This document shows, in pieces, positions 18,457-32,466 of a stretch of DNA of 64,000 nucleotides (within the stretch, counting starts at the first letter, position 1; every line of letters starts with the position of its first letter). Source of the DNA: Flavobacterium sp. FEMGT703F. Its GTDB lineage: Bacteria > Bacteroidota > Bacteroidia > Flavobacteriales > Flavobacteriaceae. The notes under the pieces were generated by a model, which saw nothing but the letters and a program-made list of their open reading frames with translations, searched no databases and was not told the origin of the DNA. Made by a program: the position numbers and the translations under genes. The DNA is taken from positions 310,001-374,000 of the forward strand of contig PGCN01000018.1 in NCBI GenBank assembly GCA_002786385.1. The letters run 5' to 3'.

Positions 18457-18884
18457 GAACTTTAGCTTTAGCGTGTATCGCATTCCTTTTCTTGGCTTCT
18501 TGTAGTTCCAAAGAAGCTAAACCTCTTAAAATCAATACCGATGCTTGCGATTTTTGCAAAATGACCATCGCCAACGGTAAATTCGGAGCCGAACTGATTA
18601 CCCAAAAAGGCCGTTATTACAAATTTGACGATTTGGGCTGTATGGTGCAATTTGCCAAATCTAATACTGTAGTGCCATACCAATCTTTCTTTGTAAACGA
18701 TTACACCAAAGACAACACTTTGATTCCGGCAGAAACAGCTTTCTTTATCAAAAGCGACCAAATCAATTCGCCCATGAGAGGCAATATGGCAGCATTGGCA
18801 ACCGCAGCAGAACAAAGCGAATACGCTAAAAAGTTCAATGCAAAACCTTTAAACTGGACAGAAGTTTACAACAGTTACAAATGA
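18453..18884 (+). CDS. nosL: NosL copper chaperone lipoprotein
   Basis: NosL is an outer-membrane or periplasmic lipoprotein that binds Cu(I) and passes it to the NosDFY-NosZ assembly path. The lipobox ends in LASC17, and the copper motif D-x-C-x-x-C-K-M is at residues 30-37. Further family marks are YYKFDDLGCMVQF and SPMRGNMAALATAAEQSEYAKKF. The 143 residues fit the family. It is coupled to the NosB-like gene and to nosD by four-base overlaps. Confidence 0.95.
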   Translation: MRTLALACIAFLFLASCSSKEAKPLKINTDACDFCKMTIANGKFGAELITQKGRYYKFDDLGCMVQFAKSNTVVPYQSFFVNDYTKDNTLIPAETAFFIKSDQINSPMRGNMAALATAAEQSEYAKKFNAKPLNWTEVYNSYK

Positions 18885-20110
18885 AAAATTTAGTGTATAT
18901 CCTTTACTTTTTTTGCCTAATCAGTAATGCTAAAACCATTACCGTTGGGAAAACCTATCCGGTTAAAACCATCAAACAAGCTTTGGCTTTGGCAAACGAT
19001 GGCGATACGGTATTGGTTACTCCGGGTATTTACAAAGAAGGAAATATTCTTATCAACAAAAAAATCATTTTCTTGGGTAAAAACTTCCCAACGCTTGACG
19101 GCCAAAACAAATTTGAAGTAGTATCTGTTGCTGCCGATAATGTGGTAGTCAAAGGCTTCAAAATCATCAATTCGGGTTATGCCGCATTGGATGATCCTTG
19201 CGGGATTAAAGTGTATGACCGAAGCTTTGTTCGGATAGAGAACAACATCCTCGACAATAATTTTTTTGGCATTTACCTCCAAAACTCCAAAAACAGCCTT
19301 GTCAAAAACAATAATATCAGGGCTTACGGCAAACAAGAACAACTCATCGGAAACGGCATTCACTGTTGGAAAAGCGAAAACCTGCAAATCATTGGCAACA
19401 AAATTTCAGGACACCGTGATGGCATCTATTTCGAATTTGTAACCAACTCGGTGATTTGGCGCAATATCTCCAACCACAACATTCGGTACGGTTTGCACTT
19501 TATGTTTTCTAACGACGATTCTTATATCACTAATGTCTTTAAAGGAAACGGAGCCGGAGTAGCCGTGATGTTTACCAAAAACGTCAAAATGTTCAATAAT
19601 TATTTCGAAGAAAACTGGGGCGATTCGGCCTACGGTTTATTGCTCAAAGAGATAGCCGACAGTTACATCTTTAACAACCATTTCAAACGAAATACTTCCG
19701 GAATTTATATGGAAGGTACGTCCCGAATTAAAGTTGAAAAAAACGTTTTTGAAGCCAACGGCTGGGGCATGAAAATCCAAGCCAGCTGTATGGAAAACGA
19801 AGTGGTAAACAACAATTATGTCGGCAATACGTTCGACATCAGCACCAACGGAAGTTTAGTGCTCAATACTTTCAACAGCAATTACTGGGACAAATACGAA
19901 GGCTACGATTTAAACAAAGACGGCATAGGCGATGTGCCTTACCATCCGCTCAGTTTGTTTGCGGTACTCACCGAAAGCAACCCATCGTCGATGTTATTGT
20001 ACCGCAGTTTTATGATTACCCTTTTGGACAAATCCGAAAAAGTATTACCCAGCATCACACCTGATAATTTTATTGATAAAACGCCTTTAATGAAGCAGTT
20101 AAAGTTATAA
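18881..20110 (+). CDS. nosD: NosD periplasmic copper-insertion protein
   Basis: NosD is a periplasmic right-handed beta-helix protein that works with the NosFY ABC transporter to mature the CuZ site. The 409 residues begin with a signal peptide. CASH-type helical repeats fill the chain (VVVKGFKIINSG, IENNILDNNFFGIYLQNS, GIHCWKSENLQIIGNKISGHRDGIYFEF). The C-terminal YWDKYEGYDLNKDGIGDVPYHP is typical of NosD. It overlaps nosL by four bases. The usual partner nosF is separated from it by an inserted cassette. Confidence 0.95.
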   Translation: MKNLVYILYFFCLISNAKTITVGKTYPVKTIKQALALANDGDTVLVTPGIYKEGNILINKKIIFLGKNFPTLDGQNKFEVVSVAADNVVVKGFKIINSGYAALDDPCGIKVYDRSFVRIENNILDNNFFGIYLQNSKNSLVKNNNIRAYGKQEQLIGNGIHCWKSENLQIIGNKISGHRDGIYFEFVTNSVIWRNISNHNIRYGLHFMFSNDDSYITNVFKGNGAGVAVMFTKNVKMFNNYFEENWGDSAYGLLLKEIADSYIFNNHFKRNTSGIYMEGTSRIKVEKNVFEANGWGMKIQASCMENEVVNNNYVGNTFDISTNGSLVLNTFNSNYWDKYEGYDLNKDGIGDVPYHPLSLFAVLTESNPSSMLLYRSFMITLLDKSEKVLPSITPDNFIDKTPLMKQLKL

Positions 20111-20111
20111 A

Positions 20112-20146
20112 GTTACGGGTTACGGGTTGCGAGTTATAGGTTATAA
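20112..20146 (+). repeat. Heptamer tandem repeat, left side of the cassette
   Basis: Five consecutive 7-base units descend from GTTACGG (GTTACGG, GTTACGG, GTTGCGA, GTTATAG, GTTATAA). They start two bases after the nosD stop. Confidence 0.75.
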
Positions 20147-20218
20147 GTAGATGTGAATTAATTTTATTTGTAAGAAAAATATACTAAAATTGTAGAAGCG
20201 AACTATAATTTACTTTCT

Positions 20219-20611
20219 ATGGCTACTGTAAATACTTTTGAAGAATTGGAAATCTGGCAATTAAGCAGAGAAATTTGTTATCACTTATGGGATTTATTTG
20301 AAAAAACATCATTAGGAAAAGATTTCGAATTAAAAAATCAAATGAACAGATCTTCAGGCTCGATAATGGACAACATTGCCGAAGGATTTGAAAGAAACGG
20401 AAGGAGAGAATTTATTAATTTTTTAAGCTACTCAAAAGGCTCTTGCGGCGAATTACAATCTCAATTACACAGAGCATTTGACAGAAAACATATCAGTAAA
20501 GAAGAGTTTGAATTTTTAAAAGAAAAAACAATGATAGCAAGTAAAAAAATAGGTTCATTCATGTCTTATCTAATAAAATCAGACCATAAAGGAAGTAAGT
20601 TCGACAGATAG
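20219..20611 (+). CDS. Four-helix-bundle protein (S23/IVS-encoded family)
   Basis: The 130 residues match the four-helix-bundle family first seen in intervening sequences of 23S rRNA genes (TIGR02436): TFEELEIWQLSREICYHLW at the start, FELKNQMNRSSGSIMDNIAEGFERNGRREFINFL in the middle, and SCGELQSQLHRA. These proteins occur as orphan intergenic genes in many Bacteroidetes, and a relative (Avd) assists retroelement reverse transcriptases. The gene sits in the middle of the nos operon between nosD and nosF, flanked by heptamer repeats, and is more AT-rich than its neighbours. It is probably a passenger without a role in N2O reduction. Confidence 0.9.
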   Translation: MATVNTFEELEIWQLSREICYHLWDLFEKTSLGKDFELKNQMNRSSGSIMDNIAEGFERNGRREFINFLSYSKGSCGELQSQLHRAFDRKHISKEEFEFLKEKTMIASKKIGSFMSYLIKSDHKGSKFDR

Positions 20612-20618
20612 TTGGAAA

Positions 20619-20660
20619 GTTACGAATTACAGGTTAAAAAACCCGAAACCCGAAACAAAT
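20619..20660 (+). repeat. Heptamer tandem repeats, right side of the cassette
   Basis: Degenerate units GTTACGA, ATTACAG and GTTAAAA (20619-20639) are followed by two ACCCGAA units (20641-20654). They fill the gap between the four-helix-bundle gene and nosF and match the unit type on the left flank. Confidence 0.65.
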
Positions 20661-20661
20661 C

Positions 20662-21387
20662 ATGATATCCATAAAAAATATAAGCAAAAAATTCGGCAAA
20701 TTAGCCGTATTACAAGACATTAACCTTTCGTTTCAAAAAGGCCAATGCATTGCCCTCATCGGACCTAACGGATGCGGAAAAACCACTTTAATCAAATCGA
20801 TTTTAGGCATGGTGATTCCCGATAACGGTTCGATTACTTTCAACGGAAAATCAATCCTCGGTGATTATTTGTACCGAAACAACATAGGCTATATGCCACA
20901 GATTGGGCGTTATCCCGACAATATGACCATCGGTCAAATTATCGAAATGATTAAAAAAGTACGGCCTTCAACCACCGAATTAGACGAAGAACTCATCCGC
21001 GCTTTTGAACTCGACAAATTATTCGACAAACAAATGCGAACCCTTTCGGGCGGAACTACCCAAAAAGTGAGTGCTGTTTTGGCTTTCTTATTCAATCCCG
21101 ATGTACTGATTTTAGACGAACCTACCGCCGGTTTAGATCCGCTGGCATCCGAAATTTTAAAAGAAAAAATTATCCGTGAAAAAGAAAAAGGAAAACTAAT
21201 CCTTATCACGTCGCACTTGCTTAGTGAACTCGACGACTTAATCACCGAAATCATTTTTATGCAGGATGGTCAAGTGCATTTCCATAAAAATGTCACCGTT
21301 ATCAAAGCGGAAACCAACGAAACCCGAATCTCCAAAGCCATTGCCAGCATCCTAAAAGCCAAACAAACCACAACTCGTAACTCGTAA
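20662..21387 (+). CDS. nosF: NosF ABC transporter ATPase
   Basis: NosF is the cytoplasmic ATPase that powers NosY in copper-site maturation of NosZ. The 241 residues show Walker A GPNGCGKTT near residue 37, the signature LSGGTTQKVSA, Walker B VLILDEPTAGLDP, and the switch His in ITSHLLSEL. The final residues (TTTRNS) are encoded by heptamer repeats that run through the stop codon, so the natural C-terminus has probably been altered by repeat insertion. The gene is 13 bp before nosY. Confidence 0.95.
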   Translation: MISIKNISKKFGKLAVLQDINLSFQKGQCIALIGPNGCGKTTLIKSILGMVIPDNGSITFNGKSILGDYLYRNNIGYMPQIGRYPDNMTIGQIIEMIKKVRPSTTELDEELIRAFELDKLFDKQMRTLSGGTTQKVSAVLAFLFNPDVLILDEPTAGLDPLASEILKEKIIREKEKGKLILITSHLLSELDDLITEIIFMQDGQVHFHKNVTVIKAETNETRISKAIASILKAKQTTTRNS

Positions 21388-21399
21388 CCTGAAACTCAT
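21372..21399 (+). repeat. Heptamer tandem repeat across the nosF stop and nosF-nosY gap
   Basis: The units AACTCGT, AACTCGT, AACCTGA and AACTCAT follow one another. They are of the same type as the units flanking the four-helix-bundle gene, read on the opposite strand. The nosF stop codon (21385-21387) lies inside the array. Confidence 0.7.
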
Positions 21400-21400
21400 C

Positions 21401-22168
21401 ATGAACCGCATCATAAAAATCATCTTACTCGACATCCTAAAGAACAAAATTGTGTTGGCCTACACTTTAATTTTGGCAGCACTCTCCTGGAGTTCTTTCG
21501 CCTTAGAAGACAATTCGGCCAAAGGATTACTCACCATCTTAAACGTCATTTTATTTACCGTACCGTTGGTTTCCATCTTGTTCGCTACCATTTACTTGTA
21601 CAACAGCTCAGAGTTTATCGAACTACTGCTTAGCCAACCGATCAAACGCCGAAAAATTTGGACCAGTTTGTTCTTGGGATTGTCACTTTCAATGGTATTA
21701 GCCTTTGTTGTAGGTGCCGGCATACCGTTGCTGATTAACGCACCCGACAGCGTTGGACTAATGATGATTATGGTCGGTAGTTTAATCTCGGTCATCTTTG
21801 TGGCATTGGCTTTCTTGAGTTCCATCCTAACCCGAGACAAAGCCAAAGGCATCGGGATTGCCATCATGACTTGGTTGTTTTTTGCCTTATTATTCGACGG
21901 TATCGTGTTGTTCTTACTCTTCCAATTGGCCGATTATCCTATCGAACATGCCATGGTAGCCATGACGGCTTTAAGCCCAATCGATTTGGCGCGTATTCAA
22001 ATTTTAATGCACTTGGATGTTTCGGCCATGATGGGTTATACCGGAGCTATTTTTCAGGATTTCTTCGGAACAGCGGTTGGTTTAATTATTTCATTTTTGC
22101 TGCTTTGTTTGTGGGCGATGGTGCCGTTTTTTATCTCACTGAAAAAATTCAACCAAAAAGATTTGTAA
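21401..22168 (+). CDS. nosY: NosY ABC transporter permease
   Basis: NosY is the membrane partner of NosF and docks NosD and NosL for copper transfer. The 255 residues have six hydrophobic helices and the family opening IKIILLDILKNKIVLAYTLIL, then LSQPIKRRKIW in the first cytoplasmic loop and ALSPIDLARIQILMHLD before the last helices. The coupling to nosF and the one-base gap to the globin gene fit one transcript. Confidence 0.93.
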   Translation: MNRIIKIILLDILKNKIVLAYTLILAALSWSSFALEDNSAKGLLTILNVILFTVPLVSILFATIYLYNSSEFIELLLSQPIKRRKIWTSLFLGLSLSMVLAFVVGAGIPLLINAPDSVGLMMIMVGSLISVIFVALAFLSSILTRDKAKGIGIAIMTWLFFALLFDGIVLFLLFQLADYPIEHAMVAMTALSPIDLARIQILMHLDVSAMMGYTGAIFQDFFGTAVGLIISFLLLCLWAMVPFFISLKKFNQKDL

Positions 22169-22169
22169 C

Positions 22170-22541
22170 ATGAAAACCGATATCCGAAACCGCAAAGACA
22201 TCGAGAAATTGGTCAATACCTTTTACGACAAAGTAAAAACCGACGAGGTAATCGGTTATTTGTTTAACGATGTCGCCCAAGTCAACTGGGAAAATCATCT
22301 GCCTAAAATGTACAATTTTTGGGAAAACATTCTTTTCTTTACCGGAAATTACGAAGGCAATCCGATGGCCCGACACAAAGAGTTACACGAAAAAAGCCCA
22401 ATGAATCCAACACATTTCGGACATTGGAATAAATTATTCACTGAAACCGTAGACAAACTTTTTGAAGGTCCGAAGGCCGAAGAAATCAAAAATCGTGCGC
22501 TGAACATTTCCGCCGCCATGATGTACAAAACCTTGAGCTGA
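22170..22541 (+). CDS. Group III truncated hemoglobin
   Basis: The 123 residues match group III (P) truncated globins: DIEKLVNTFYDKVKTDEVIGYLF at helices A-B, FWENILFFTGNYEGNP, and the proximal His in HKELHEKSPMNPTHFGHW. Globins of this class bind heme in the cytoplasm and are linked to NO detoxification or sensing. Its place as the next-to-last gene of the nos transcript supports a role in handling NO made during denitrification. Confidence 0.92.
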   Translation: MKTDIRNRKDIEKLVNTFYDKVKTDEVIGYLFNDVAQVNWENHLPKMYNFWENILFFTGNYEGNPMARHKELHEKSPMNPTHFGHWNKLFTETVDKLFEGPKAEEIKNRALNISAAMMYKTLS

Positions 22542-22984
22542 TGACACATCAAATTATTTTAATCTTTCATTTACTGGCCGCGACCGTTTGGGTTGGCGGT
22601 CATTTGTTTTTAGCTATTCGCTATTTACCCGAAGCCTTGAAAAAGAAAGACGCTTCAGTATTAATCAATTTTAAAGACAAATTTGAACCGGTAGGCTTGC
22701 CTTCGCTATTGACTTTATTAATCACCGGAATTGCCATGGCGTATCATTACGACGTTACGTTTACCCATTGGTTTTCGTTTTCAGGCAGCATCGAGAAAGT
22801 AGTTTCCGCCAAATTACTGCTACTATTTATTACTGTAGGCATGGCCATCAATGCCCAATTGTTCGTTTTCCCAAAAATCAAATCCGACAATTTACGCCCG
22901 GTTGCTTTTCAAATTATCGCCATTACGGTGATTGGCGTAGCGATGCTAATCTTAGGCAGTTGGGTTAGAATTGGAGGTTTATAG
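22541..22984 (+). CDS. CopD-like membrane protein
   Basis: The 147 residues carry four helices and resemble the CopD copper-resistance family (PF05425): an N-terminal HQIILIFHLLAATVWVGGHLFL with the paired His residues, YLPEAL, VGLPSLLTLLITGIAM and a C-terminal [11 protein letters not shown]. The likely role is copper or heme handling in the inner membrane for NosZ. Its start overlaps the globin stop (TGATG), and its last 20 bases overlap the end of convergent nadB. Confidence 0.75.
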   Translation: MTHQIILIFHLLAATVWVGGHLFLAIRYLPEALKKKDASVLINFKDKFEPVGLPSLLTLLITGIAMAYHYDVTFTHWFSFSGSIEKVVSAKLLLLFITVGMAINAQLFVFPKIKSDNLRPVAFQIIAITVIGVAMLILGSWVRIGGL

Positions 22985-24515
22985 TTTGGCCTTCTTTGTA
23001 AAAACTGCCTTTGTTTTCATGTCGTTTTAAAGAAAAAGCAACAATCGGAATACTAACCTCAATACTGTTTTTCAGTTCTAAAAAATCTTTGGTCACCGCA
23101 TATTCCCGTTCCATTTCCCGACACTCGTTTTTCCAAAGTTGCAATAGCTTTAAGGTGTTTTTTAAGTCGATGTCGTGCCGAACAATCCCGGCATTTTGCT
23201 GCATTAGGTTTTGCAGTTCTTCACGATGTTTCGATACCCATTCAGAGGAAACGGTTTTGGTTGGCTGATGGGATTTACTCGGAATTTTCAAGGAAAAAGA
23301 GCGGTTCTCCGAATCCGTTTCGCTCAAATAATTATAAATCTGATGGGCATACACCAAAGCTTCTAACAACGAATTCGACGCCAAACGGTTCGCGCCATGC
23401 AAGCCGGTTCGGGAACATTCGCCACAAGCAAATAATCGATTAATGGAAGTCAATCCGTTTGTATCCACCTCAACGCCGCCACACAAATAATGCTGTGTCG
23501 GAATCACCGGAATCCAAGCTGAAGCGATATCAACGCCTTCCAACAAACAATTCTGATAAATCGTCGGGAAATGCTTTTTAAATTCAACTAAATCCAAATG
23601 CGTACAATCTAAATACACGCAATCGTCACCCGATTTTTTGAGTTCGGTTTCAATACTTCTGGAAACGATATCGCGCGACGCCAATTCGCCACGCACATCA
23701 TAATCCAACATAAACCGACGACCGTTCTTCGTTTTCAAATAAGCCCCAAATCCACGAACTGCCTCAGAAATCAAAAAAGTCGAAGCCGACTGTGGCGCAT
23801 ACAAAGCCGTTGGATGAAATTGGATAAACTCCATATCGCTAATCTTAGCTTTGGCCCTAATCGCCATCGCAATACCATCGCCCGTGGCTATTGTAGAGTT
23901 TGTCGTTTGCTGATACACTTGCCCGATTCCGCCGGTCGCCAAAATGATAAAGCTAGAGAAAATCGGGAACATGTCGTTGGTTTTTTCATCCAAAACACTA
24001 ACGCCGAAACACCAATTGTTTTCAGTAATCAAATCGGTGGCCAAATGAAAATCGAGGATTTCAATATTAGGTTGTTGATGGGCTTTGGCCAAAATAGCGC
24101 GCTCAATTTCCCGTCCGGTTTGGTCTTTATAATGCACCACTCGAGAATTGGAATGTCCGCCTTCTTTGGCTAAATCAAGATTTCCCGTGTCGTTTACATC
24201 GAATTGCGTTCCCCATTCAATAAGTTCGGCCAAGCGTTTCGGTCCTTCTTTCACCACCATTTCCACCACTGCTCTATTGCACAACCCATCGCCACACACC
24301 AAAGTATCGTGGATGTGTTTTTCAAAATCATCGCTCACGCCATCCATCACCACGGCAATCCCGCCTTGGGCGTATTTGGTATTCGACTCGTCTTCGTTGG
24401 ATTTGGTGACAATCAATACCTTTCGCTCCGGAAATTGTAGCGCCAATTTGATGGCAACTGTCAGTCCGGCGATACCTGAACCTAAAATCAAATAATCGGT
24501 TTCTATCTTCATCAT
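22965..24515 (-). CDS. nadB: L-aspartate oxidase
   Basis: NadB oxidises L-aspartate to iminoaspartate, the first step of de novo NAD synthesis, using FAD with O2 or fumarate as electron acceptor. The 516 residues show the FAD fold [56 protein letters not shown] and the closing [11 protein letters not shown]. The stop-start overlap with nadA (four bases) makes an operon nadA-nadB read on the minus strand. Confidence 0.96.
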
Positions 24516-25441
24516 TTCGACAATTCAAGCATGCGTTGGATGGGAATAAGGGCTTTGTCTGCAACTTTCTTCGGCACATTGATTTCCGGAGATTCTTTGA
24601 GCAAACAATCGTATAATTTGCGGAGCGTGTTGAGTTTCATATACGCACATTCGCTGCAAGCACAAGTATTGTCTTCCATAGCCGGCGCGGGAATTAAAAC
24701 TTTATCGGGTACAGCTTCCTGCATTTTGTGTAAAATGCCGGCTTCGGTGGCGACGATGAATTCGGTTTTCGGACTTTGCTTTACAAATTCAATCATCCCT
24801 GAAGTGGATCCGATATAACTCGCCGTTTCTAAAATATGCGTTTCCGATTCGGGATGCGCAATGATTGCAGCATTTGGGTGTTCTTTGTGTAGCGCGATCA
24901 GTTTCTCTAAAGAAAAAGCTTCGTGCACTACACAACTGCCGTCCCAAAGCACCATTTGGCGTCCGGTTTTTTGGTTGATATAGTTTCCGAGGTTTTTATC
25001 GGGCGCAAAAATAATCGGGATGTTTTCGGGTACCGAGTTGACTATCTTTTCCGCATTGGACGACGTGCAAACCAAATGGCTCAACGCTTTGATTTCGGCG
25101 GAGCAATTCACATACGTAATCACGATATGATTGGGATGGGCTTCGATGAATTTCTTAAAAATATCAGGCGGACAAGAATCGGCTAACGAACAACCGGCAT
25201 TCAAATCAGGCAACAAAACCTTCTTCTTCGGATTTAATAATTTGGCCGTTTCAGCCATAAAATGCACACCGGCAAACACTATAATATCGGCATTTACTTT
25301 CTCCGCTTCTTGCGACAATCCTAAACTGTCGCCCACATAATCGGCTATTTCCTGTATGTCGGGTTGTTGGTAATAATGGGCTAAAATCACGGCATTCTTC
25401 TCTTTTTTCAATCGGAGAATCTGCTCTTTTAAATTTTCCAT
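24512..25441 (-). CDS. nadA: Quinolinate synthase
   Basis: NadA condenses iminoaspartate with dihydroxyacetone phosphate to quinolinate and carries an oxygen-sensitive 4Fe-4S cluster. The three Cys ligand regions are visible: [32 protein letters not shown] and [18 protein letters not shown]. The ATG at 25441 (MENLKEQIL, 309 residues) was preferred because the longer reading adds 15 residues foreign to the family and would put the promoter inside the gene. A Crp/Fnr-type box shared with ric lies 51 bp upstream, with TTATTTTG at the right distance. Confidence 0.95.
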
Positions 25442-25491
25442 AGGTGTATTGTAAGAAGCTACAAAATAAGGGCTGAAAAAAGCCATTTTCT

Positions 25492-25505
25492 ATGACTTTA
25501 ATCAT
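25492..25505. promoter_or_regulatory. Crp/Fnr-type operator shared by ric and nadA
   Basis: ATGACTTTAATCAT lies between divergent nadA and ric. On the plus strand the exact -7 element TAATTTTG (25529-25536) is centred 34 bp away. On the minus strand TTATTTTG (25462-25469) is centred 33 bp away. One palindrome could therefore control both promoters. Confidence 0.8.
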
Positions 25506-25565
25506 ATATCGCAACGGTGTAGTAGTCTTAATTTTGGAGAACTTTAAAATTAAAACACCTTATTT

Positions 25566-26294
25566 ATGAATGCTTTAGAACAAATAACCGTAGGAGAATT
25601 TGTAGCCGGAGATTTTAGAACAGCAGCGGTTTTCTCCAAATATGGCATCGACTTTTGCTGTAAAGGCAATAGAACTTTAGAAGAAGTTTGCGAAAAAAAA
25701 GGAATCGATATCCATGTAGTACAAGACGAATTAAATACCGTTTTAGAATCGAAATCAGACAATAACATCGATTTCAAATCTTGGCCCATCGACTTATTAA
25801 TCGACTACATCGAAAAAACGCACCATCGTTATGTAGAAGAAAAATCGACCGCCTTACTTTTTTACCTCGACAAACTCTGCAAGGTACACGGACAACGCCA
25901 TCCGGAACTTTTTGAAATTGGACTTCACTTTAAAATTTGCGCTACCGAATTGGCCCAACACATGAAAAAAGAAGAACTGATTTTGTTCCCGTTTGTCAAA
26001 AAAATGTTCCACTCCCTTCGAGACCAAGAATCGATAGAACAGCCACATTTCGGAACTGTGAATAATCCGATTGCCATGATGCAGGACGAACACGAAAATG
26101 AAGGCGAACGCTTCCGCATCATTGCCAAATTAACCGACAACTACAATCCGCCGGTTGATGCTTGTGAAACCTACCGCGTAACTTTTGCCATGCTGAAAGA
26201 ATTCGAACAGGATTTACACAAACACATTCACCTCGAAAACAACATAGTGTTTCCTAAAGCGCAGGCTATGGAAACCAAGTTCGACCTCATATAA
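25566..26294 (+). CDS. ric: Iron-sulfur cluster repair di-iron protein (RIC/ScdA/YtfE)
   Basis: RIC proteins restore Fe-S clusters after nitrosative or oxidative damage through a hemerythrin-like di-iron centre in the cytoplasm. The 242 residues begin with a ScdA_N domain (ALEQITVGEFVAGDFRTAAVF, then the CCKGN Cys pair). A hemerythrin domain follows, with Fe ligands in THHRYVEE, AQHMKKEE, MQDEHENEG and HKHIHLENNIVFP. It heads the ric-nrdD-nrdG unit behind a Crp/Fnr-type box. Confidence 0.95.
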   Translation: MNALEQITVGEFVAGDFRTAAVFSKYGIDFCCKGNRTLEEVCEKKGIDIHVVQDELNTVLESKSDNNIDFKSWPIDLLIDYIEKTHHRYVEEKSTALLFYLDKLCKVHGQRHPELFEIGLHFKICATELAQHMKKEELILFPFVKKMFHSLRDQESIEQPHFGTVNNPIAMMQDEHENEGERFRIIAKLTDNYNPPVDACETYRVTFAMLKEFEQDLHKHIHLENNIVFPKAQAMETKFDLI

Positions 26295-26326
26295 TCAAAC
26301 TAATCAAAACAAAAAACACGTTCATC

Positions 26327-28441
26327 ATGGAAAAATATGTAATTAAAAGAAACGGAGATTATAAACCTTTTGAACCTTTTAAAATAAAGGATGCGATAGT
26401 CAAGAGCTTTACCAGCGTTTCGCTTCCGTTTGATGAGCGTGTTTTTGAAAAAGTTATGGTAGCCATCGAAGCCAAGGATACTTGGGCAGTCGAAGAAATT
26501 CAGGATACCATCGAAAAAATACTTTTTGAATTCGACTATTTTACAGTGATGCGTTCGTTTATGTTGTACCGTCACACGCGAAAACTGCAACGCGAACACG
26601 TACAAGGATTGAACGACGACACGACTTATGTAGACAGCACCCAAACCATTGAAGAATACATCGCCCAAACCGATTGGCGCATCAATGCCAATGCCAATAC
26701 CTCCTATTCCAATGCGGGTTTGGTGAACAATGTAGCCGGAAAAATCATTGCCAATTATTGGCTGGATAAAGTGTATACCAAAGAAGAAGGTTACGCCCAT
26801 CGCAACGGTGACATTCACATCCACGATTTGGACTGCCTCACCGGATACTGCGCAGGTTGGAGTTTACGCGTGTTACTCAACGACGGTTTTAACGGTGTTC
26901 GCGGTCGGGTGGAAAGCAAAGCACCATCACATTTCCGGGAAGCCTTAGGACAAATGGCCAACTTTCTCGGGATTCTGCAAAGCGAATGGGCCGGTGCACA
27001 AGCCTTCAGTTCGTTTGACACTTATTTAGCACCCTACGTTTTTAAAGATAATTTGTCGTTTGAAGACGTACTTAAAGCCGTTCGCAGTTTTGTGTACAAC
27101 TTGAATGTTCCGGCGCGCTGGGGCCAATCACCGTTTACCAACATTACCTTAGATTGGGTAGTTCCGGCGGATTTAGCGGTACAAGTTCCAACCAAAAACG
27201 ATCGGCATTTATTTGAAAAAATTACCGATGAAAAAATCTTGGCTCGTGCCCAAGAACGCGGTGTAGAAAGCTTAACCGAACTGCGTTACGAACATTTTCA
27301 GGCCGAAATGAACCTGATTAATAAAGCCTATTATACCGTAATGACGGAAGGCGATGCCAACGGCCAACCGTTCACCTTCCCGATTCCGACGGTGAATATT
27401 ACTGAAGATTTCGACTGGAACGGCGAAAACACCGAACTGCTGTTTGAAAACACGGCTAAAATCGGTTCGTCGTATTTTCAGAATTTCATCGGAAGTCAGT
27501 ATACTACCGACGAAAACGGCATCAAAATGGAAAACCCAAATGCCTATAAACCCAATGCCGTGCGCAGTATGTGCTGTCGCTTGCAACTCGATTTACGCGA
27601 ATTATTAAAACGAGGGAACGGTTTGTTTGGTAGTGCCGAAATGACCGGTAGCATTGGTGTAGTGACTATCAATATGGCTCGTTTGGGCTACTTATATGAA
27701 GGCGATAAAGAGGCGCTTTTCACCCGATTGGACGAACTGATGGTGTTGGCCAAATCGACTTTAGAGAAAAAACGACGATTCATACAGGAAATGTACGATA
27801 GAGGTTTATATCCTTACACCAAAAGGTATTTGCCGCATTTCCGCAATCACTTTTCCACTATTGGTGTCAACGGTATGAACGAAATGATTCGCAATTTCAC
27901 CAATGATCAGGAAGACATCACCACGAATTTCGGCCATGACTTTTCGATGGAAATCCTGAATCACATCCGCAATCGCATGAAAGAGTTCCAAGAAGAAACC
28001 GGAAATTTATACAACCTCGAAGCTACGCCTGCAGAAGGTACTACGTATCGCTTTGCAAAAGAAGACAAAAAACGCTATCCGAACATTGTACAAGCGGGTA
28101 GCGACGACAATATTTATTACACCAACAGCTCGCAAATTCCGGTAGATTTTACCCAAGATCCGTTTGAAGCTTTATTGATGCAAGACGAATTACAATGCCA
28201 ATACACCGGCGGCACCGTATTGCATTTGTACATGAACGAGAGAATCAGTACTTCGGAAGCCTGTAAAAACTTTGTCAAAACCGTACTATCGAAATTCAAA
28301 TTGCCTTATATCACGGTCACACCTGTTTTTAGTGTGTGTCCGGTGCACGGTTACCTCAACGGCGAACACGAATTTTGCCCGAAATGTGACGATGCTTTAT
28401 TAGAAAAACTAAACCAAGATAACTATGAAAACCAAAACTAA
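26327..28441 (+). CDS. nrdD: Anaerobic ribonucleoside-triphosphate reductase, catalytic body without the radical segment
   Basis: NrdD makes dNTPs without oxygen using a glycyl radical. The 704 residues start with an ATP-cone (YVIKRNGDYKPFEPFKIKDAI) and continue with the barrel, including the active-site Cys region VRSMCCRLQLDL and a C-terminal zinc motif in which one of the four Cys is His (CPVHGY and CPKC). The chain stops about 20 residues later, before the RVxGY glycyl-radical motif found in one-piece enzymes. That motif is on the following overlapping ORF. Cotranscribed with ric, 32 bp upstream. Confidence 0.93.
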   Translation: MEKYVIKRNGDYKPFEPFKIKDAIVKSFTSVSLPFDERVFEKVMVAIEAKDTWAVEEIQDTIEKILFEFDYFTVMRSFMLYRHTRKLQREHVQGLNDDTTYVDSTQTIEEYIAQTDWRINANANTSYSNAGLVNNVAGKIIANYWLDKVYTKEEGYAHRNGDIHIHDLDCLTGYCAGWSLRVLLNDGFNGVRGRVESKAPSHFREALGQMANFLGILQSEWAGAQAFSSFDTYLAPYVFKDNLSFEDVLKAVRSFVYNLNVPARWGQSPFTNITLDWVVPADLAVQVPTKNDRHLFEKITDEKILARAQERGVESLTELRYEHFQAEMNLINKAYYTVMTEGDANGQPFTFPIPTVNITEDFDWNGENTELLFENTAKIGSSYFQNFIGSQYTTDENGIKMENPNAYKPNAVRSMCCRLQLDLRELLKRGNGLFGSAEMTGSIGVVTINMARLGYLYEGDKEALFTRLDELMVLAKSTLEKKRRFIQEMYDRGLYPYTKRYLPHFRNHFSTIGVNGMNEMIRNFTNDQEDITTNFGHDFSMEILNHIRNRMKEFQEETGNLYNLEATPAEGTTYRFAKEDKKRYPNIVQAGSDDNIYYTNSSQIPVDFTQDPFEALLMQDELQCQYTGGTVLHLYMNERISTSEACKNFVKTVLSKFKLPYITVTPVFSVCPVHGYLNGEHEFCPKCDDALLEKLNQDNYENQN

Positions 28442-28583
28442 CCTTGTTCTGGAGCAACACCAAGAACTTCGCACCAAATGCTTGGTGTACACCCGAGTAA
28501 TGGGCTACCATCGACCTGTAGAAAGTTTCAACATCGGTAAAAAAGGCGAGCACAAACAACGCCTACACTTTAAAGAAAGCTGA
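28425..28583 (+). CDS. Separate glycyl-radical peptide of NrdD (52 aa)
   Basis: This 52-residue ORF overlaps the nrdD end by 17 bases in the +1 frame and stops one base before nrdG. Its sequence carries YTRVMGYHRPVESFNIGKKGEH, which matches the last segment of one-piece NrdD proteins (R-V-x-G-Y followed by R-P-V-x-x-x-N-x-G-K). The Gly of RVMGY would be the radical site. About 23 linker residues precede it, and the nrdD ORF also has an extra tail, so the break does not look like a fresh frameshift. It may act like the YfiD/GrcA spare part of pyruvate formate-lyase, as a second subunit. A programmed +1 shift joining the two is possible but no slip site was recognised. Confidence 0.82.
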   Translation: MKTKTNLVLEQHQELRTKCLVYTRVMGYHRPVESFNIGKKGEHKQRLHFKES

Positions 28584-28584
28584 C

Positions 28585-29259
28585 ATGGTAAAATCGGTTA
28601 GTAATATAACACCGTTCACCCTGCTGGACTATCCGGATAAAACCGCCTGTATCTTGTGGTATGCCGGCTGTAATATGCGGTGTTTGTATTGCTACAATCC
28701 TGAGATTGTTTTCGGGAAAGGCAAGTTTTCCTTTCCCGAAATGGTCTCTTTTTTGGAAACCCGAAAAGGCTTGCTCGATGCTGTAGTATTTAGTGGCGGC
28801 GAATGTTTGCTCCACAAAGACATCTTCGAGCAAATTCAAACGGTGAAAACCATGGGCTTTTTGGTGAAAGTAGACACCAACGGCTCTAAACCTGAAGTGT
28901 TGCAAAATTTACTGGAAAAGAAGGTAATTGACTATGTAGCACTCGATTTCAAATCGACCAAAGAATCCTTTGCCGCCATTACACAATCGGATTTGTTCGA
29001 CCAATTTGAAAAATCGTTGCAGTTATTACTGAACGCCAATATTCCGTTTGAAGTACGAACAACTTATCATTCTGAATTGCTGGCCAAAGAAGAATTGTGC
29101 GAGATGATTGATTACCTGCAATACAACCAATACACGGGAACGTATTACATTCAGCATTTCCGAAACAACGTCGAAACCATTGGTAAACTGCCGGATTCCC
29201 GAGATCGTTTGGAACACCAACTCCCCGAAAATCCAAACCTGAAAATCAAATTTCGCTAA
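28585..29259 (+). CDS. nrdG: Anaerobic NrdD-activating radical SAM protein
   Basis: NrdG uses a 4Fe-4S cluster and S-adenosylmethionine to put the glycyl radical on NrdD. The 224 residues contain the cluster motif C-x3-C-x2-C in WYAGCNMRCLYCYNPE near residue 35, the SAM-binding FSGGECLLH (GGE motif) and VDTNGSKPEVL. It follows the radical peptide ORF by one base, so the activator is made next to its target. Length is within the range of NrdG-type activases. Confidence 0.93.
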   Translation: MVKSVSNITPFTLLDYPDKTACILWYAGCNMRCLYCYNPEIVFGKGKFSFPEMVSFLETRKGLLDAVVFSGGECLLHKDIFEQIQTVKTMGFLVKVDTNGSKPEVLQNLLEKKVIDYVALDFKSTKESFAAITQSDLFDQFEKSLQLLLNANIPFEVRTTYHSELLAKEELCEMIDYLQYNQYTGTYYIQHFRNNVETIGKLPDSRDRLEHQLPENPNLKIKFR

Positions 29260-29260
29260 A

Positions 29261-31072
29261 CTAAACCTGTTCTAAAACCGGAATGTCAATCCGATTTACT
29301 TCAGCTTTATACCACAGTAATTGCTGTTGCATGTGTTTCTTATCTTGGGTAAATAAATCTGTCTGCGCAAACAAATCCGAATAATACGCTATACCCGAAA
29401 GCAAATTACTTTTAAATGCGCTCCATTTTTTGAGTTGGGCCGATGTAAAGTCATCGGTAAATTGCTCCAATTCGTTTTTGAGGTAATCCACATACATTTT
29501 AAGCTCTTTGATAAACATATGCGGACGATTATTATCGGCCAACACGTTAGCATTGCCGTAAATGTGTTTCACCATATCGGCCAAAGAAACTTCGCGGTCA
29601 AAATAGGCTAAATTCGGTCCGGGACAAATCACCACGCCTTGTTGCTGTCCTTTAACGTCCATATCGTTTTCCAAATAAGACGCATTGGCCAAACCAACAC
29701 ACAAACACGATTTCTGAAAGATTTTGGCTTGCTTTTGCTGAATTTCTGACTCTGATAATTGGTCTTTTTGCGCTTCCAATTCGGCCAATTTAATATCCTG
29801 GTATTTTTTAGAAGCCGTGCACATGCCTCTCGGATCGTATTCTTTGTTGAGTGCCAAAAACTTTTTCGGACATGAACTTCCGGCTTTGTTTTCGGCGATG
29901 CGCTTTTGCTTCCAAAAGTCATTGCTCATACCTTTTACCGTGTTGAACAATACACCGAGTGGCGAAATATCGCTTAAATAAAAATCTTTTTCTTTCGCTT
30001 GAGCCAACAGCGTTCGGGTTTCTTCATCTACCGAAGTCGCCTCCGGAACCAACAAAAAAGGCGAACCCCAACCTACAGCGTCCATGTCAAAATGCTGTAG
30101 TAAAAATTCGTGTTCTTCTGCCGTGCCAACGCCGCCTTGGGCAGTGATTTTTAAGTCAAATGGCATCGTCGGAACGGGCAAATTTTTCGCTTGCAAAGCT
30201 TTAACCATCAGTTCATGTGCTGATTGGATGAGTTGCTCTTTTTTGGATTTGAATTCTTCTAAAATCGGACCCATTAAAAAACCGTCGGTAGCAAAGGCAT
30301 GTCCGCCACAATTTAAGCCGGATTCGATGCGGTATTCCGACACCCAAAGGCCTTTTTTGGCCAAGAAATTCCCTTGTATCATGGCCGAACGAAAATCGCT
30401 TACCTTCAGTATAATTTTCTTTTGCAACTGTCCGTCAGCATTCGGATAAAACACCGGAAACTGTTCGAAATAGCTGTATAATCTCGGATTCATTCCGGCT
30501 GAGAGCACAACCGAAGACGTCAGATTACTTTCGGCAAAACCGCGCAATGAGGCATGCGCATCGTTGAACTCCACGGGCAAAGGTTCATTTTTATCGTAAT
30601 TCTCCTTATCCACTTTGGTCATAATATTCACATCAATACTGCCGGGCGCAAAATGTTCGGCTAGGTAATTTTTGATGTTTTCTTTAAAAGTCAACCCTTC
30701 TGCCACAAGATTTTGCAAGCCTTTTTTGAACTCCGATTGGTTGGGTAACATCGCAATGTAATTGTCTAAAGTGGTTTTATTTTCCGCCAATTCGGCTTTA
30801 AAGCGTTCGAATTTGTCTTTCACCACGGTATCGACCAAGTTCAAATAATGTTTGATGCGTTCGGCGCGGTAATCGTGGCATTTTTGGGTAATTTCACGAT
30901 AAGGCAAACTGAATTTTCGGCTGTAAAAGGCACGCATTTTTTCAATCAGTTCGTCATCGGTAATGGAAATTACAGAGGAAATGCCGAAATGAGCCAATCG
31001 TATCGGGCTGTCTATGGTATAAGCCAACCCCATAACAGGTATGTGAAAGGTGTGGACGTTTTTAGTGGTCAT
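29261..31072 (-). CDS. Nitronate-monooxygenase-like TIM-barrel protein with Cys-rich C-terminal part, unknown function
   Basis: I do not recognise a named family for these 603 residues. Three motifs resemble FMN-binding nitronate monooxygenase/FabK barrels: IPVMGLAYTIDSPIRLAHFG at the first strand, ESGLNCGGHAF in the place of EGxxxGGHxG, and GGVGTAEEHEFLL followed by DAVGWGSPFLLVPEA as the phosphate-binding turn. A helical insertion fills residues 45-170. The last 200 residues hold Cys in SSCPKKF, RGMCTAS, KSCLCVGLA and VVICPGPN, which could ligate a metal or Fe-S cluster. A Crp/Fnr-type box lies 52 bp upstream and norB follows, so a part in NO metabolism is inferred. The ATG at 31072 is preferred because the MTTKNVHTFHIPVMGLAY start fits the fold. 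Confidence 0.7.
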   Translation of the reverse strand: MTTKNVHTFHIPVMGLAYTIDSPIRLAHFGISSVISITDDELIEKMRAFYSRKFSLPYREITQKCHDYRAERIKHYLNLVDTVVKDKFERFKAELAENKTTLDNYIAMLPNQSEFKKGLQNLVAEGLTFKENIKNYLAEHFAPGSIDVNIMTKVDKENYDKNEPLPVEFNDAHASLRGFAESNLTSSVVLSAGMNPRLYSYFEQFPVFYPNADGQLQKKIILKVSDFRSAMIQGNFLAKKGLWVSEYRIESGLNCGGHAFATDGFLMGPILEEFKSKKEQLIQSAHELMVKALQAKNLPVPTMPFDLKITAQGGVGTAEEHEFLLQHFDMDAVGWGSPFLLVPEATSVDEETRTLLAQAKEKDFYLSDISPLGVLFNTVKGMSNDFWKQKRIAENKAGSSCPKKFLALNKEYDPRGMCTASKKYQDIKLAELEAQKDQLSESEIQQKQAKIFQKSCLCVGLANASYLENDMDVKGQQQGVVICPGPNLAYFDREVSLADMVKHIYGNANVLADNNRPHMFIKELKMYVDYLKNELEQFTDDFTSAQLKKWSAFKSNLLSGIAYYSDLFAQTDLFTQDKKHMQQQLLWYKAEVNRIDIPVLEQV

Positions 31073-31123
31073 GTAGTGCGTTTTAATAAGGGGCGAATTT
31101 TGTGAAATCATTCGGAAAAAAGT

Positions 31124-31137
31124 ATGATATATGTCAT
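31124..31137 (-). promoter_or_regulatory. Crp/Fnr-type operator of the nitronate-monooxygenase-like gene
   Basis: ATGATATATGTCAT is the same TGAY-N4-RTCA palindrome as at the nos and nor promoters and is centred 58 bp upstream of the start at 31072. Unlike the other copies, no clear TAnnTTTG element stands 33-34 bp downstream, so the promoter is less certain. Confidence 0.65.
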
Positions 31138-31146
31138 TTCCAACGA

Positions 31147-32466
31147 TTATTTAAAGGATAGACGCAAACCGCTGAGCAATTCGAATACGATGCGGTACAA
31201 ACCGATAAAAATCCCCAAGCCGAACAGCACGAAAACCACATAAAACCCATGCATAGCATCTTGGAATTGACCAAAAGACAACGTTTTGTCGAAGAAAGTC
31301 CAATGTGCTTTCCGAACACCCATCAACAACAAACAGCCCCAAAACAATACAAAGGAAGTTTGGAACAAGCGAATGCCGAATCGGATTTTTGATACTGAAA
31401 ACGAATACTGGTTCGATTCGAGTATATAAGTTACGGAAGAGAGCAAAATCAACGTATTGATTCCAATAGTCGTTCCCATAGAATGCGCCACGGTAATGTG
31501 CGTTCCGTGGGTAAATAAATTAACTGCCGGTATAGATATCAACAACGCCAAAATAATATTCAAAAACACCCAAAAATCGGCCAATCGCATAAATTGGTGT
31601 GCAATAGGAAAAGCTGTTTTTTGGTCTTGATTCAAATTTTTTTTCCAATCGTAAATAATAGACGCCAAAATAATCCATTCGGTCATGCTGATGCCGTAAG
31701 CCAAATACCGAATCCAAGGCGCAGTAGGCACTATATACACATGATGCGCCCAACCAAACATAAGGTTGGTTAAGCCTAAAAAGTAAAAGAAAAACCCTTT
31801 GCCTGATTTGGCGTAACCGTCATCCCCGCTGATTTTAGCCATAACATAAATCGCGGTACCGTAAACCAACATATTCCAAGAGCCTACATAAGAACCGCCG
31901 GCTTTCCATTGCAGCGCCGTGTTTTGTATGAAATGCGATTTAAAATAAGGCAACAACCACAAATGGGCTTCGGTGAAATGGTAAATCATCATCACAATTC
32001 CGGTGGCCCACATCCAATAATACACCGGCCAGGTTTTGAAAGTAGCGGCCAACGTTTTGAAATATTGAATGCCAAACAACAGCCAGCCTGAAACAATGGG
32101 GAAGTAAAAATAACTCGGAAATTCCAGGTATTCTTTTCCGGCAAAATTTAGAAACAAATAAGACAAGGCAATACCAAATCCCGTTAAGATAAAAATCCAA
32201 AAATGCGTTTTAACCAAAAGCTGATTGGTCGGTTTCTCGTTGGAATTCCGACTCAAATAATAGTAAATTCCGCCGATAGCAGTGAGCAAAACCCAAGAAA
32301 CCACAAAGAGTGTGTGTAACGGTCGCAGCGCCGTAAACGGTAAAGCTTGTTTGATGAAATCGGGGACAACATACTGAAAACCGGCAAGCAAGCCACAGAG
32401 CAAACCCAACAATAACGACATCAATCCGGCAGCAATAAAGTAAAACGGGTAGCGATTAGTGTTCAT
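31147..32466 (-). CDS. norB: Nitric oxide reductase catalytic subunit, NorB-like heme-copper protein
   Basis: The 439-residue protein has about 12 helices of the heme-copper oxidase superfamily and should reduce NO to N2O in the membrane. His ligand regions are visible in RPLHTLFVVSWV, IYHFTEAHLWLLPYF, FGWAHHVYIVPTAP and FTHGTHITVAHSMGTTIGIN. The Glu beside the H-F-T-E-A-H motif recalls the active-site Glu of NO reductases, but its spacing differs from classical NorB, so it may be one of the less-studied NOR subfamilies. It overlaps the preceding NorC-like gene by 11 bases. No norQ or norD is adjacent. Confidence 0.82.
   Translation of the reverse strand: MNTNRYPFYFIAAGLMSLLLGLLCGLLAGFQYVVPDFIKQALPFTALRPLHTLFVVSWVLLTAIGGIYYYLSRNSNEKPTNQLLVKTHFWIFILTGFGIALSYLFLNFAGKEYLEFPSYFYFPIVSGWLLFGIQYFKTLAATFKTWPVYYWMWATGIVMMIYHFTEAHLWLLPYFKSHFIQNTALQWKAGGSYVGSWNMLVYGTAIYVMAKISGDDGYAKSGKGFFFYFLGLTNLMFGWAHHVYIVPTAPWIRYLAYGISMTEWIILASIIYDWKKNLNQDQKTAFPIAHQFMRLADFWVFLNIILALLISIPAVNLFTHGTHITVAHSMGTTIGINTLILLSSVTYILESNQYSFSVSKIRFGIRLFQTSFVLFWGCLLLMGVRKAHWTFFDKTLSFGQFQDAMHGFYVVFVLFGLGIFIGLYRIVFELLSGLRLSFK

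Follow-up and report, generated by a model that had tools for sequence, protein, structure and literature searches.

Structurally characterised class III ribonucleotide reductases (RNRs), such as the NrdD enzymes of P. copri (8p23/8p2s), T. maritima (4u3e) and phage T4 (1h7b), are one-piece proteins in which the radical glycine lies on the same chain as the rest of the enzyme. Here we describe an nrdD locus in a 64,000-nucleotide stretch of DNA from Flavobacterium sp. FEMGT703F (assembly GCA_002786385.1, contig PGCN01000018.1, positions 310,001 to 374,000), referred to throughout as the window. The enzyme encoded there shares with the one-piece NrdDs the NAN flap, the HxHD motif, the cysteine, the zinc motif, the radical-glycine segment and an NrdG activase, and with the P. 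copri enzyme also the ATP-cone and the core, whereas its radical glycine is found on a separate 52-aa protein. Judging from sequence, we consider it very probable that the window enzyme is a class III RNR made of two polypeptides, a core and an obligate 52-aa radical subunit, served by an NrdG activase.

RNRs in several pieces have been described before. The class II enzyme NrdJa/NrdJb of Pseudomonas aeruginosa is likewise one RNR of two chains encoded by adjacent open reading frames (ORFs), according to the available parts of three reports (PMC4520616, PMC9669993, PMC4009431), whereas the window enzyme belongs to class III. Phage nrdD genes are also found in several pieces owing to introns, inteins and homing endonucleases (available sections of PMC3653736 and PMC12363816). 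Those breaks are mostly insertions, whereas the break in the window lies between the zinc motif and the radical segment and, because the two ORFs overlap by 17 bases, there is no inserted element between them. For the four-piece nrdD of Jug phages, the accessible text of PMC12363816 reports no splicing between the 230-aa and 91-aa pieces, the latter of which might be a separate glycyl-radical domain (GRD). Among enzymes of other kinds, pyruvate formate-lyase has spare parts, E. coli GrcA/YfiD and phage T4 Y06I, which are likewise small separate proteins with a radical glycine; viral versions exist, and according to PMC8683613 YfiD and Y06I are the only spare parts to have been validated. In public plasmid annotation the small gene is already labelled nrdD beside a ‘ribonucleoside triphosphate reductase’, a pair not described as a two-part enzyme in the literature passages found. 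The open-access PMC literature searched, including PMC9531940, PMC3019208, PMC4390871, PMC11528403, PMC2795772 and PMC4860495 besides the reports on class II and phage enzymes named above, yielded no class III RNR divided in this way; subscription papers lay outside that search and may hold a prior description of what would, from its sequence, be a new variant of class III RNR.

The features of the locus are collected in Table 1. An earlier note on this DNA had claimed that nrdD stops after its zinc motif without the R-V-x-G-Y segment, and that this motif sits on a 52-residue ORF in the +1 frame which shares 17 bases with nrdD and is placed a single base ahead of nrdG. All of these coordinates proved correct: the core contains no R-x-x-G-Y at all, while the short ORF carries the motif as R24-V-M-G27-Y28. 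The Pfam family NRDD aligned with residues 122-688 of the core over profile positions 2-528 of 562 and with the short ORF over positions 532-562 (E 9.9e-7, 28.2 bits, cut-off 26.2), so that the two ORFs jointly fill one NRDD profile. With NCBIfam PRK08270 the core covered positions 3-654 and the short ORF 649-683 of 684, in agreement with the further claim that each piece carries surplus residues where the two meet. The core scored 545 bits with PF13597, 60 bits with PF03477 (ATP-cone) and 1078 bits with PRK08270 (cut-off 548), and it keeps NAN 120-122, HIHD 164-167 and Cys417, residues that PMC11226230 names for P. copri NrdD, as well as the zinc motif C671/H674/C684/C687; the equivalence of Cys417 with the Cys416 of that paper assumes a numbering offset of 4, inferred from lengths of 743 and 739 residues (chain 8p23). 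Above cut-off, the window ORFs matched only class III models and the ATP-cone, and no class II catalytic subunit. The NRDD core with its ATP-cone, the active-site and zinc residues and the adjacent NrdG are those of a class III NrdD; the glycyl-radical motif lies on a separate ORF and not on the same chain, and we therefore filed the enzyme as a variant of that class. The closest named GRDs are from Flavobacterium (98% over 52 aa).

Table 1. Positions of the components of the split nrdD locus and of the gene directly upstream, numbered along the window
Feature	Position	Strand	Basis
NrdD core: ATP-cone (residues 3-86), catalytic barrel, C-x2-H/C-x2-C zinc motif; 704 aa	26327..28441	+	Pfam/NCBIfam
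Cys417 codon, predicted thiyl-radical cysteine (RSMCCRL)	27575..27577	+	alignment with P. copri Cys416
Zinc motif C671-x2-H674 ... C684-x2-C687, near core end	28337..28387	+	sequence; zinc binding by analogy with solved NrdDs
Separate GRD ORF, 52 aa, proposed radical subunit	28425..28583	+	Pfam NRDD 532-562, conservation, pN/pS
Gly27 codon, predicted radical glycine in R24-V-M-G27-Y28	28503..28505	+	invariant in 17-row alignment
Overlap of core end and GRD ORF start, 17 bases	28425..28441		ORF coordinates
nrdG, NrdG2-type radical-SAM activase	28585..29259	+	TIGR02495 193 bits (cut-off 131); Pfam Radical_SAM
ScdA/RIC-type hemerythrin gene directly upstream (context only, outside the enzyme)	25566..26294	+	ScdA_N + Hemerythrin

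The earlier note likened the small protein to GrcA/YfiD. The likeness holds in so far as both are separate small proteins carrying the glycine, but not as regards the role of a spare part. It is unlikely, in our assessment, that the small protein serves only to replace an oxygen-damaged end, as GrcA does, even though it is small and separate like YfiD (as described in the accessible part of PMC8683613) and though the lone GRD copies in virus records and plasmids discussed below do resemble spare parts. GrcA/YfiD stands in for a GRD that its enzyme already possesses, whereas the window core has none: the window assembly (26 contigs, completeness 100) gave a single match to the NrdD core and likewise a single one to a class I/II large subunit, and since this only NrdD core lacks a GRD, the small protein must be constitutive and obligate. 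A Pfam search at E up to 1 returned NRDD alone for the small protein, and GrcA/YfiD falls in another Pfam family. Nor does oxygen exposure, as judged by genes of the COX1 family, separate the layouts, such a gene being present in 39/39 genomes with a split NrdD, 3/10 with a fused long-type and 13/13 with a fused short-type enzyme. An oxygen lifestyle as the cause of the split was set aside for the last of these counts, the distribution alone giving it no support; the COX1 family also includes nitric-oxide reductases.

The split is conserved among relatives. A query with the core covered 100 genomes, in which the genus was represented by 60 in addition to the one that holds the window. The core was present in 25 of these 60 (24 complete copies and one fragmented at contig ends); together with the window's own, all 26 genus loci were split. 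One further genus genome (G057) gave a 28-residue match to the core only. A query with the GRD added 12 loci of the same NrdD type from the family and class, all of them split. Over these 38 loci (L001-L026, L034-L037, L053-L060) the distance from the core stop to the RVMGY codon ranged from 31 to 691 nt, the three relative frames were represented 30, 6 and 2 times, and the open GRD frame measured at most 92 aa. Left out of this set were L027-L030 (not NrdD, or the 28-residue remnant), L031-L033 (repeats, or a genome likewise split) and L038-L051 (one-piece short-type). A scan of named genomes, restricted to the best 80 of 532 relatives by likeness to the window GRD, gave 77 loci with a recognisable core, every one of them split, with 28-356 nt between core stop and motif and frame counts of 46, 20 and 11; in the other three the locus was broken (L093) or near a contig end (L123, L130). 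The 38-locus and 77-locus sets share several genomes and hence are not independent. Flavobacterium sedimenticola, F. aquatile, F. glycines and a Chitinophagaceae metagenome-assembled genome (MAG) are among the named split members. One locus (L129, 3770-4000) has a hybrid duplicate between core and GRD, in which a GRD start is joined to a second zinc-motif end. MAGs labelled Owenweeksia (L094), Bifidobacterium breve (L117) and Klebsiella pneumoniae (L123) hold a flavobacterial-type GRD, and these bins are likely to be mislabelled or contaminated.

These spacings bear on two other explanations of the locus. Programmed +1 frameshifting or read-through could give a fused NrdD in the overlap-type loci, and in 35/77 loci (counted as overlap-type) core stop and motif are indeed no more than 69 nt apart, while the window GRD frame extends into the end of the core. 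We regard this as improbable, given that the motif lies at least 84 nt beyond the core stop in the other 42/77 loci and 691 nt beyond it in one relative whose GRD frame is only 54 aa long; fusion is thus unnecessary in the family. A fault in sequencing or assembly, or a recently acquired frameshift in a continuous nrdD, would leave pieces that overlap in the +1 frame as the 17 bases in the window do, yet we give it practically no chance, because neither a base error nor one programmed shift can account for a split that recurs in all genus and named-genome loci at variable spacing of up to 691 nt and in all three frames, and because the short ORF is under purifying selection. The earlier note had reasoned that there was no recent frameshift, had named an extra or missing base near the junction as its refutation and had proposed a comparison with flavobacterial loci as a check; close relatives with this NrdD were never found in one piece, and its reasoning stands.

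Selection on the short ORF was estimated from the ratio of nonsynonymous to synonymous polymorphism (pN/pS), using blocks from the GRD (72 distinct ones out of 79) and from the core (no more than 65). The 34-codon GRD block gave 0.047 and the last 200 core codons 0.133; the N-terminal extension of the GRD gave 0.36, and the GRD bases read in the two wrong frames gave 2.0 and 3.7. In an alignment of 17 of the 26 genus proteins, 30 of the 52 positions were invariant, including the radical glycine. Purifying selection acts more strongly on the short ORF than on the core. That it might be a decaying relic, with a core that works without it or not at all, is suggested by its unusual size alone and hardly deserves credence beside a pN/pS below that of the core, the 30 invariant positions and the presence of a GRD ORF with all 26 genus cores. 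Read at the level of sequence, the split locus is real, conserved and, by the selection acting on it, in use.

A structural model of core and GRD joined in one chain was obtained with AlphaFold2 from the F. sufflavum chain read through two TAA stops and a 43-row alignment of read-through rows, cores and fused viral NrdDs. It had a mean predicted local distance difference test score (pLDDT) of 83.5 and a predicted template modelling score (pTM) of 0.78. The ten-residue blocks from 741 on, which contain the radical loop, had pLDDT values of 83-90, with Gly749 in a turn between strands 742-747 and 750-753. The model superimposed on P. copri 8p2s_B over residues 82-772 (Z 33.7, root-mean-square deviation (rmsd) 2.6, 553 residues) and on T. 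maritima 4u3e_B over 77-776 (Z 32.2, rmsd 3.2, 556 residues), these ranges giving only the first and last aligned residues; the Z values with phage T4 1h7b and P. copri 8p23 were 32.1 and 30.9. In P. copri NrdD the GRD moves largely as a rigid body and is disordered by dATP (from the available part of PMC11226230), which suits a separable domain.

In the enzyme that we propose, ATP-cone, barrel, active-site cysteine and zinc motif would come from the core and the radical glycine from the 52-aa protein. The small protein would dock non-covalently at the site of the C-terminal domain in one-piece NrdDs, placing its glycine loop in the barrel beside Cys417. NrdG would generate the glycyl radical on the small protein, from which the radical would transfer to the cysteine for every reduction cycle. 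While the sequence data establish the two genes, how well they are conserved, how selection acts on the short ORF and how widely the arrangement occurs, we infer the separate translation, the docking and the radical chemistry of the two pieces. The split may ease presentation of the domain to NrdG, or may allow its cheap replacement after oxygen cleavage at the glycine.

Several points weigh against the two-polypeptide enzyme. In the model, pLDDT falls below 50 at 699-735 (a stretch made up of the spacer, the end of the core and residues 1-13 of the small protein) as well as in the active-cysteine loop 412-437. Since the pieces were joined and fused viral NrdDs were part of the alignment, the model speaks for compatibility with docking and not for binding of two free chains. 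The evidence on denitrification in C. necator, given below, is second-hand and concerns NrdDG and not the small gene by itself. A frameshifted fusion in overlap-type loci such as that of the window is also formally conceivable, if improbable.

Split and one-piece layouts were followed at wider taxonomic range. Within the family (397 genomes) the GRD was matched in 22 genomes; the seven strong matches all lay in short frames, and 12 of the 15 weak ones lay in frames of 622-634 aa, which are one-piece short-type NrdDs, a different type that stands outside the split-locus counts. Within the class (395 genomes) there were 17 matches, 11 of them strong, all in short frames and from seven families. 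NRDD was matched in 28 of the 296 genomes of the phylum: eight had a core with a separate GRD, ten a one-piece NrdD (frames of 714-805 aa), one a one-piece NrdD of 609 aa and nine only weak matches. Examination of 13 of the 28 matching plasmid records revealed eight split loci, two one-piece NrdDs (Actinomyces and Acidiphilium), two lone GRDs and one record with the core itself in two pieces. The split plasmids were identified by annotation (C. necator pHG1, Sulfuricurvum, Bradyrhizobium, Azospira, Sulfuricystis and Shinella) or read from DNA (Paracoccus and C. metallidurans), their hosts being Alphaproteobacteria, Betaproteobacteria and Campylobacterota. On Thiothrix fructosivorans plasmid pTfr153 (L268) the core pieces meet at one base and are followed by a separate GRD and nrdG; the break in this core may be a frameshift or a further split.

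A tree built by a quick method, which carries a long-branch warning and comprises 39 cores (25 of the split and 14 of the fused layout), placed the split cores of Bacteroidota together with those of Sulfuricurvum and one virus record in a clade with a Shimodaira–Hasegawa-like approximate likelihood ratio test (SH-aLRT) support of 100. The proteobacterial split cores fell in another clade, together with the fused cores of Acidiphilium and Actinomyces. Four changes of layout were needed on this tree, at least two of them on well-supported branches, and the layout has thus changed more than once. Besides a one-piece NrdD, genome G525 contains a 108-aa frame with zinc motif and GRD near a radical-SAM-like frame (L225, minus strand, 1414-1737); we considered this piece as a spare part beside the fused NrdD and set that aside, as it is probably a remnant of another NrdD type.

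GRDs are also found alone. A GRD profile matched 50 virus records, which are fragments and in part near-copies. When PF13597 was run over these 50 whole records, two contained a core, 46 a GRD alone and two no match; one of the 46 has an extra 15-bit NRDD match that is not a core. At least one adjacent gene was searched in 23 loci, with no family match for the neighbours in L161 and L162. A holin, endolysin or lysozyme-like gene adjoined or lay near the GRD in eight loci (L150, L152, L153, L154, L158, L164, L170 and, weakly, L159), the order being holin-GRD-endolysin in L152 (3498-4508) and in L150 (3405-4787), where the holin match is below the Pfam cut-off. Other lone viral GRDs lay near head, portal, tail, terminase or thymidylate synthase genes. 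The archaeal virus ANMV-1 (KP703175.1, 38 kb), inferred in its original paper to encode an oxygen-sensitive RNR, has as its sole NRDD match profile positions 519-562 in a 144-aa protein (L265, 3680-4114). The whole records of A. vinosum pALVIN01 and A. tepidum pAt1 likewise matched NRDD at its GRD end only, and the lone small ‘nrdD’ genes of these two Allochromatium plasmids (L229, 3977-4186; L267, 2460-2645) thus have no core anywhere beside them on the plasmid. Nine of ten GRD proteins tried, including that of the window, matched phrog_4132 (‘unknown function’); that of ANMV-1 matched phrog_487 (NrdD). A search of the L153 GRD against phages gave no match, and the GRD profile matched no Protein Data Bank sequence up to E 1.

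We tentatively suggest that a widespread branch of class III RNR uses an exchangeable radical subunit, and that phages, an archaeal virus and plasmids carry lone GRDs as spare radical parts that would plug into host cores, so as to launch deoxynucleotide synthesis or bring it back in the course of an infection or following damage by oxygen, although we hold this to be somewhat less probable than its opposite. Such a role, the RNR counterpart of YfiD and phage T4 Y06I, would at most concern the copies that viruses and plasmids carry alone.

Viral NrdD loci were also examined, as the best 80 of 115 by likeness to a split phage core: 53 were fused, 23 split and four without a GRD in the flank, counts which are not to be read as frequencies. 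In a fecal phage (MT835493.1; L266, 1997-4426) a CPNC segment resembling glutaredoxin comes after NrdD in one 810-aa open frame, which may be an NrdD-redoxin fusion. The viral cores L328, L341, L346 and L350 lie in frames of 970-1198 aa, which suggests in-frame inserts such as inteins. Virus contigs L176-L178, L183-L185, L189 and L190 showed few long ORFs under table 11, or a TGA inside the NRDD match, perhaps reflecting a recoded stop.

The neighbourhood of the window locus (18881-32466) contains nosD, ABC ATPase, CopD-like, NadA, FAD-binding, ScdA/RIC hemerythrin and COX1-family genes, and is denitrification-like owing to the nosD, ABC ATPase, CopD-like, hemerythrin and COX1-family genes that surround it. 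Genes for nitric-oxide reductase, nosL and napA were found near the split loci of C. necator, Shinella and Sulfuricurvum. According to the available text of PMC2864759, C. necator H16 cannot denitrify completely without its NrdDG, and the CH34 NrdDG is Rmet_5137 and Rmet_5139; one locus tag is skipped between these two, and the pHG1 locus is split. Convergent with nrdG in the window is a 616-aa ORF (29261-31111, minus strand) with no Pfam match at E 1e-5. A promoter scan found 4 candidates against 5.9 expected, at or below chance.

The GRD of a class III RNR must occupy the barrel for catalysis and yet remain accessible to the activase. A separate 52-aa GRD makes this access problem testable with two parts that can be purified and then independently labelled or mutated. 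The finding also bears on a question raised in the accessible part of PMC8683613, namely whether further glycyl-radical enzymes are also served by proteins resembling spare parts, and it gives phrog_4132 a testable function. For the reading of genomes, it means that an NrdD of about 700 aa without RVxGY is not necessarily a pseudogene, and that an ‘nrdD’ of 50-150 aa, such as that of ANMV-1, is no whole reductase.

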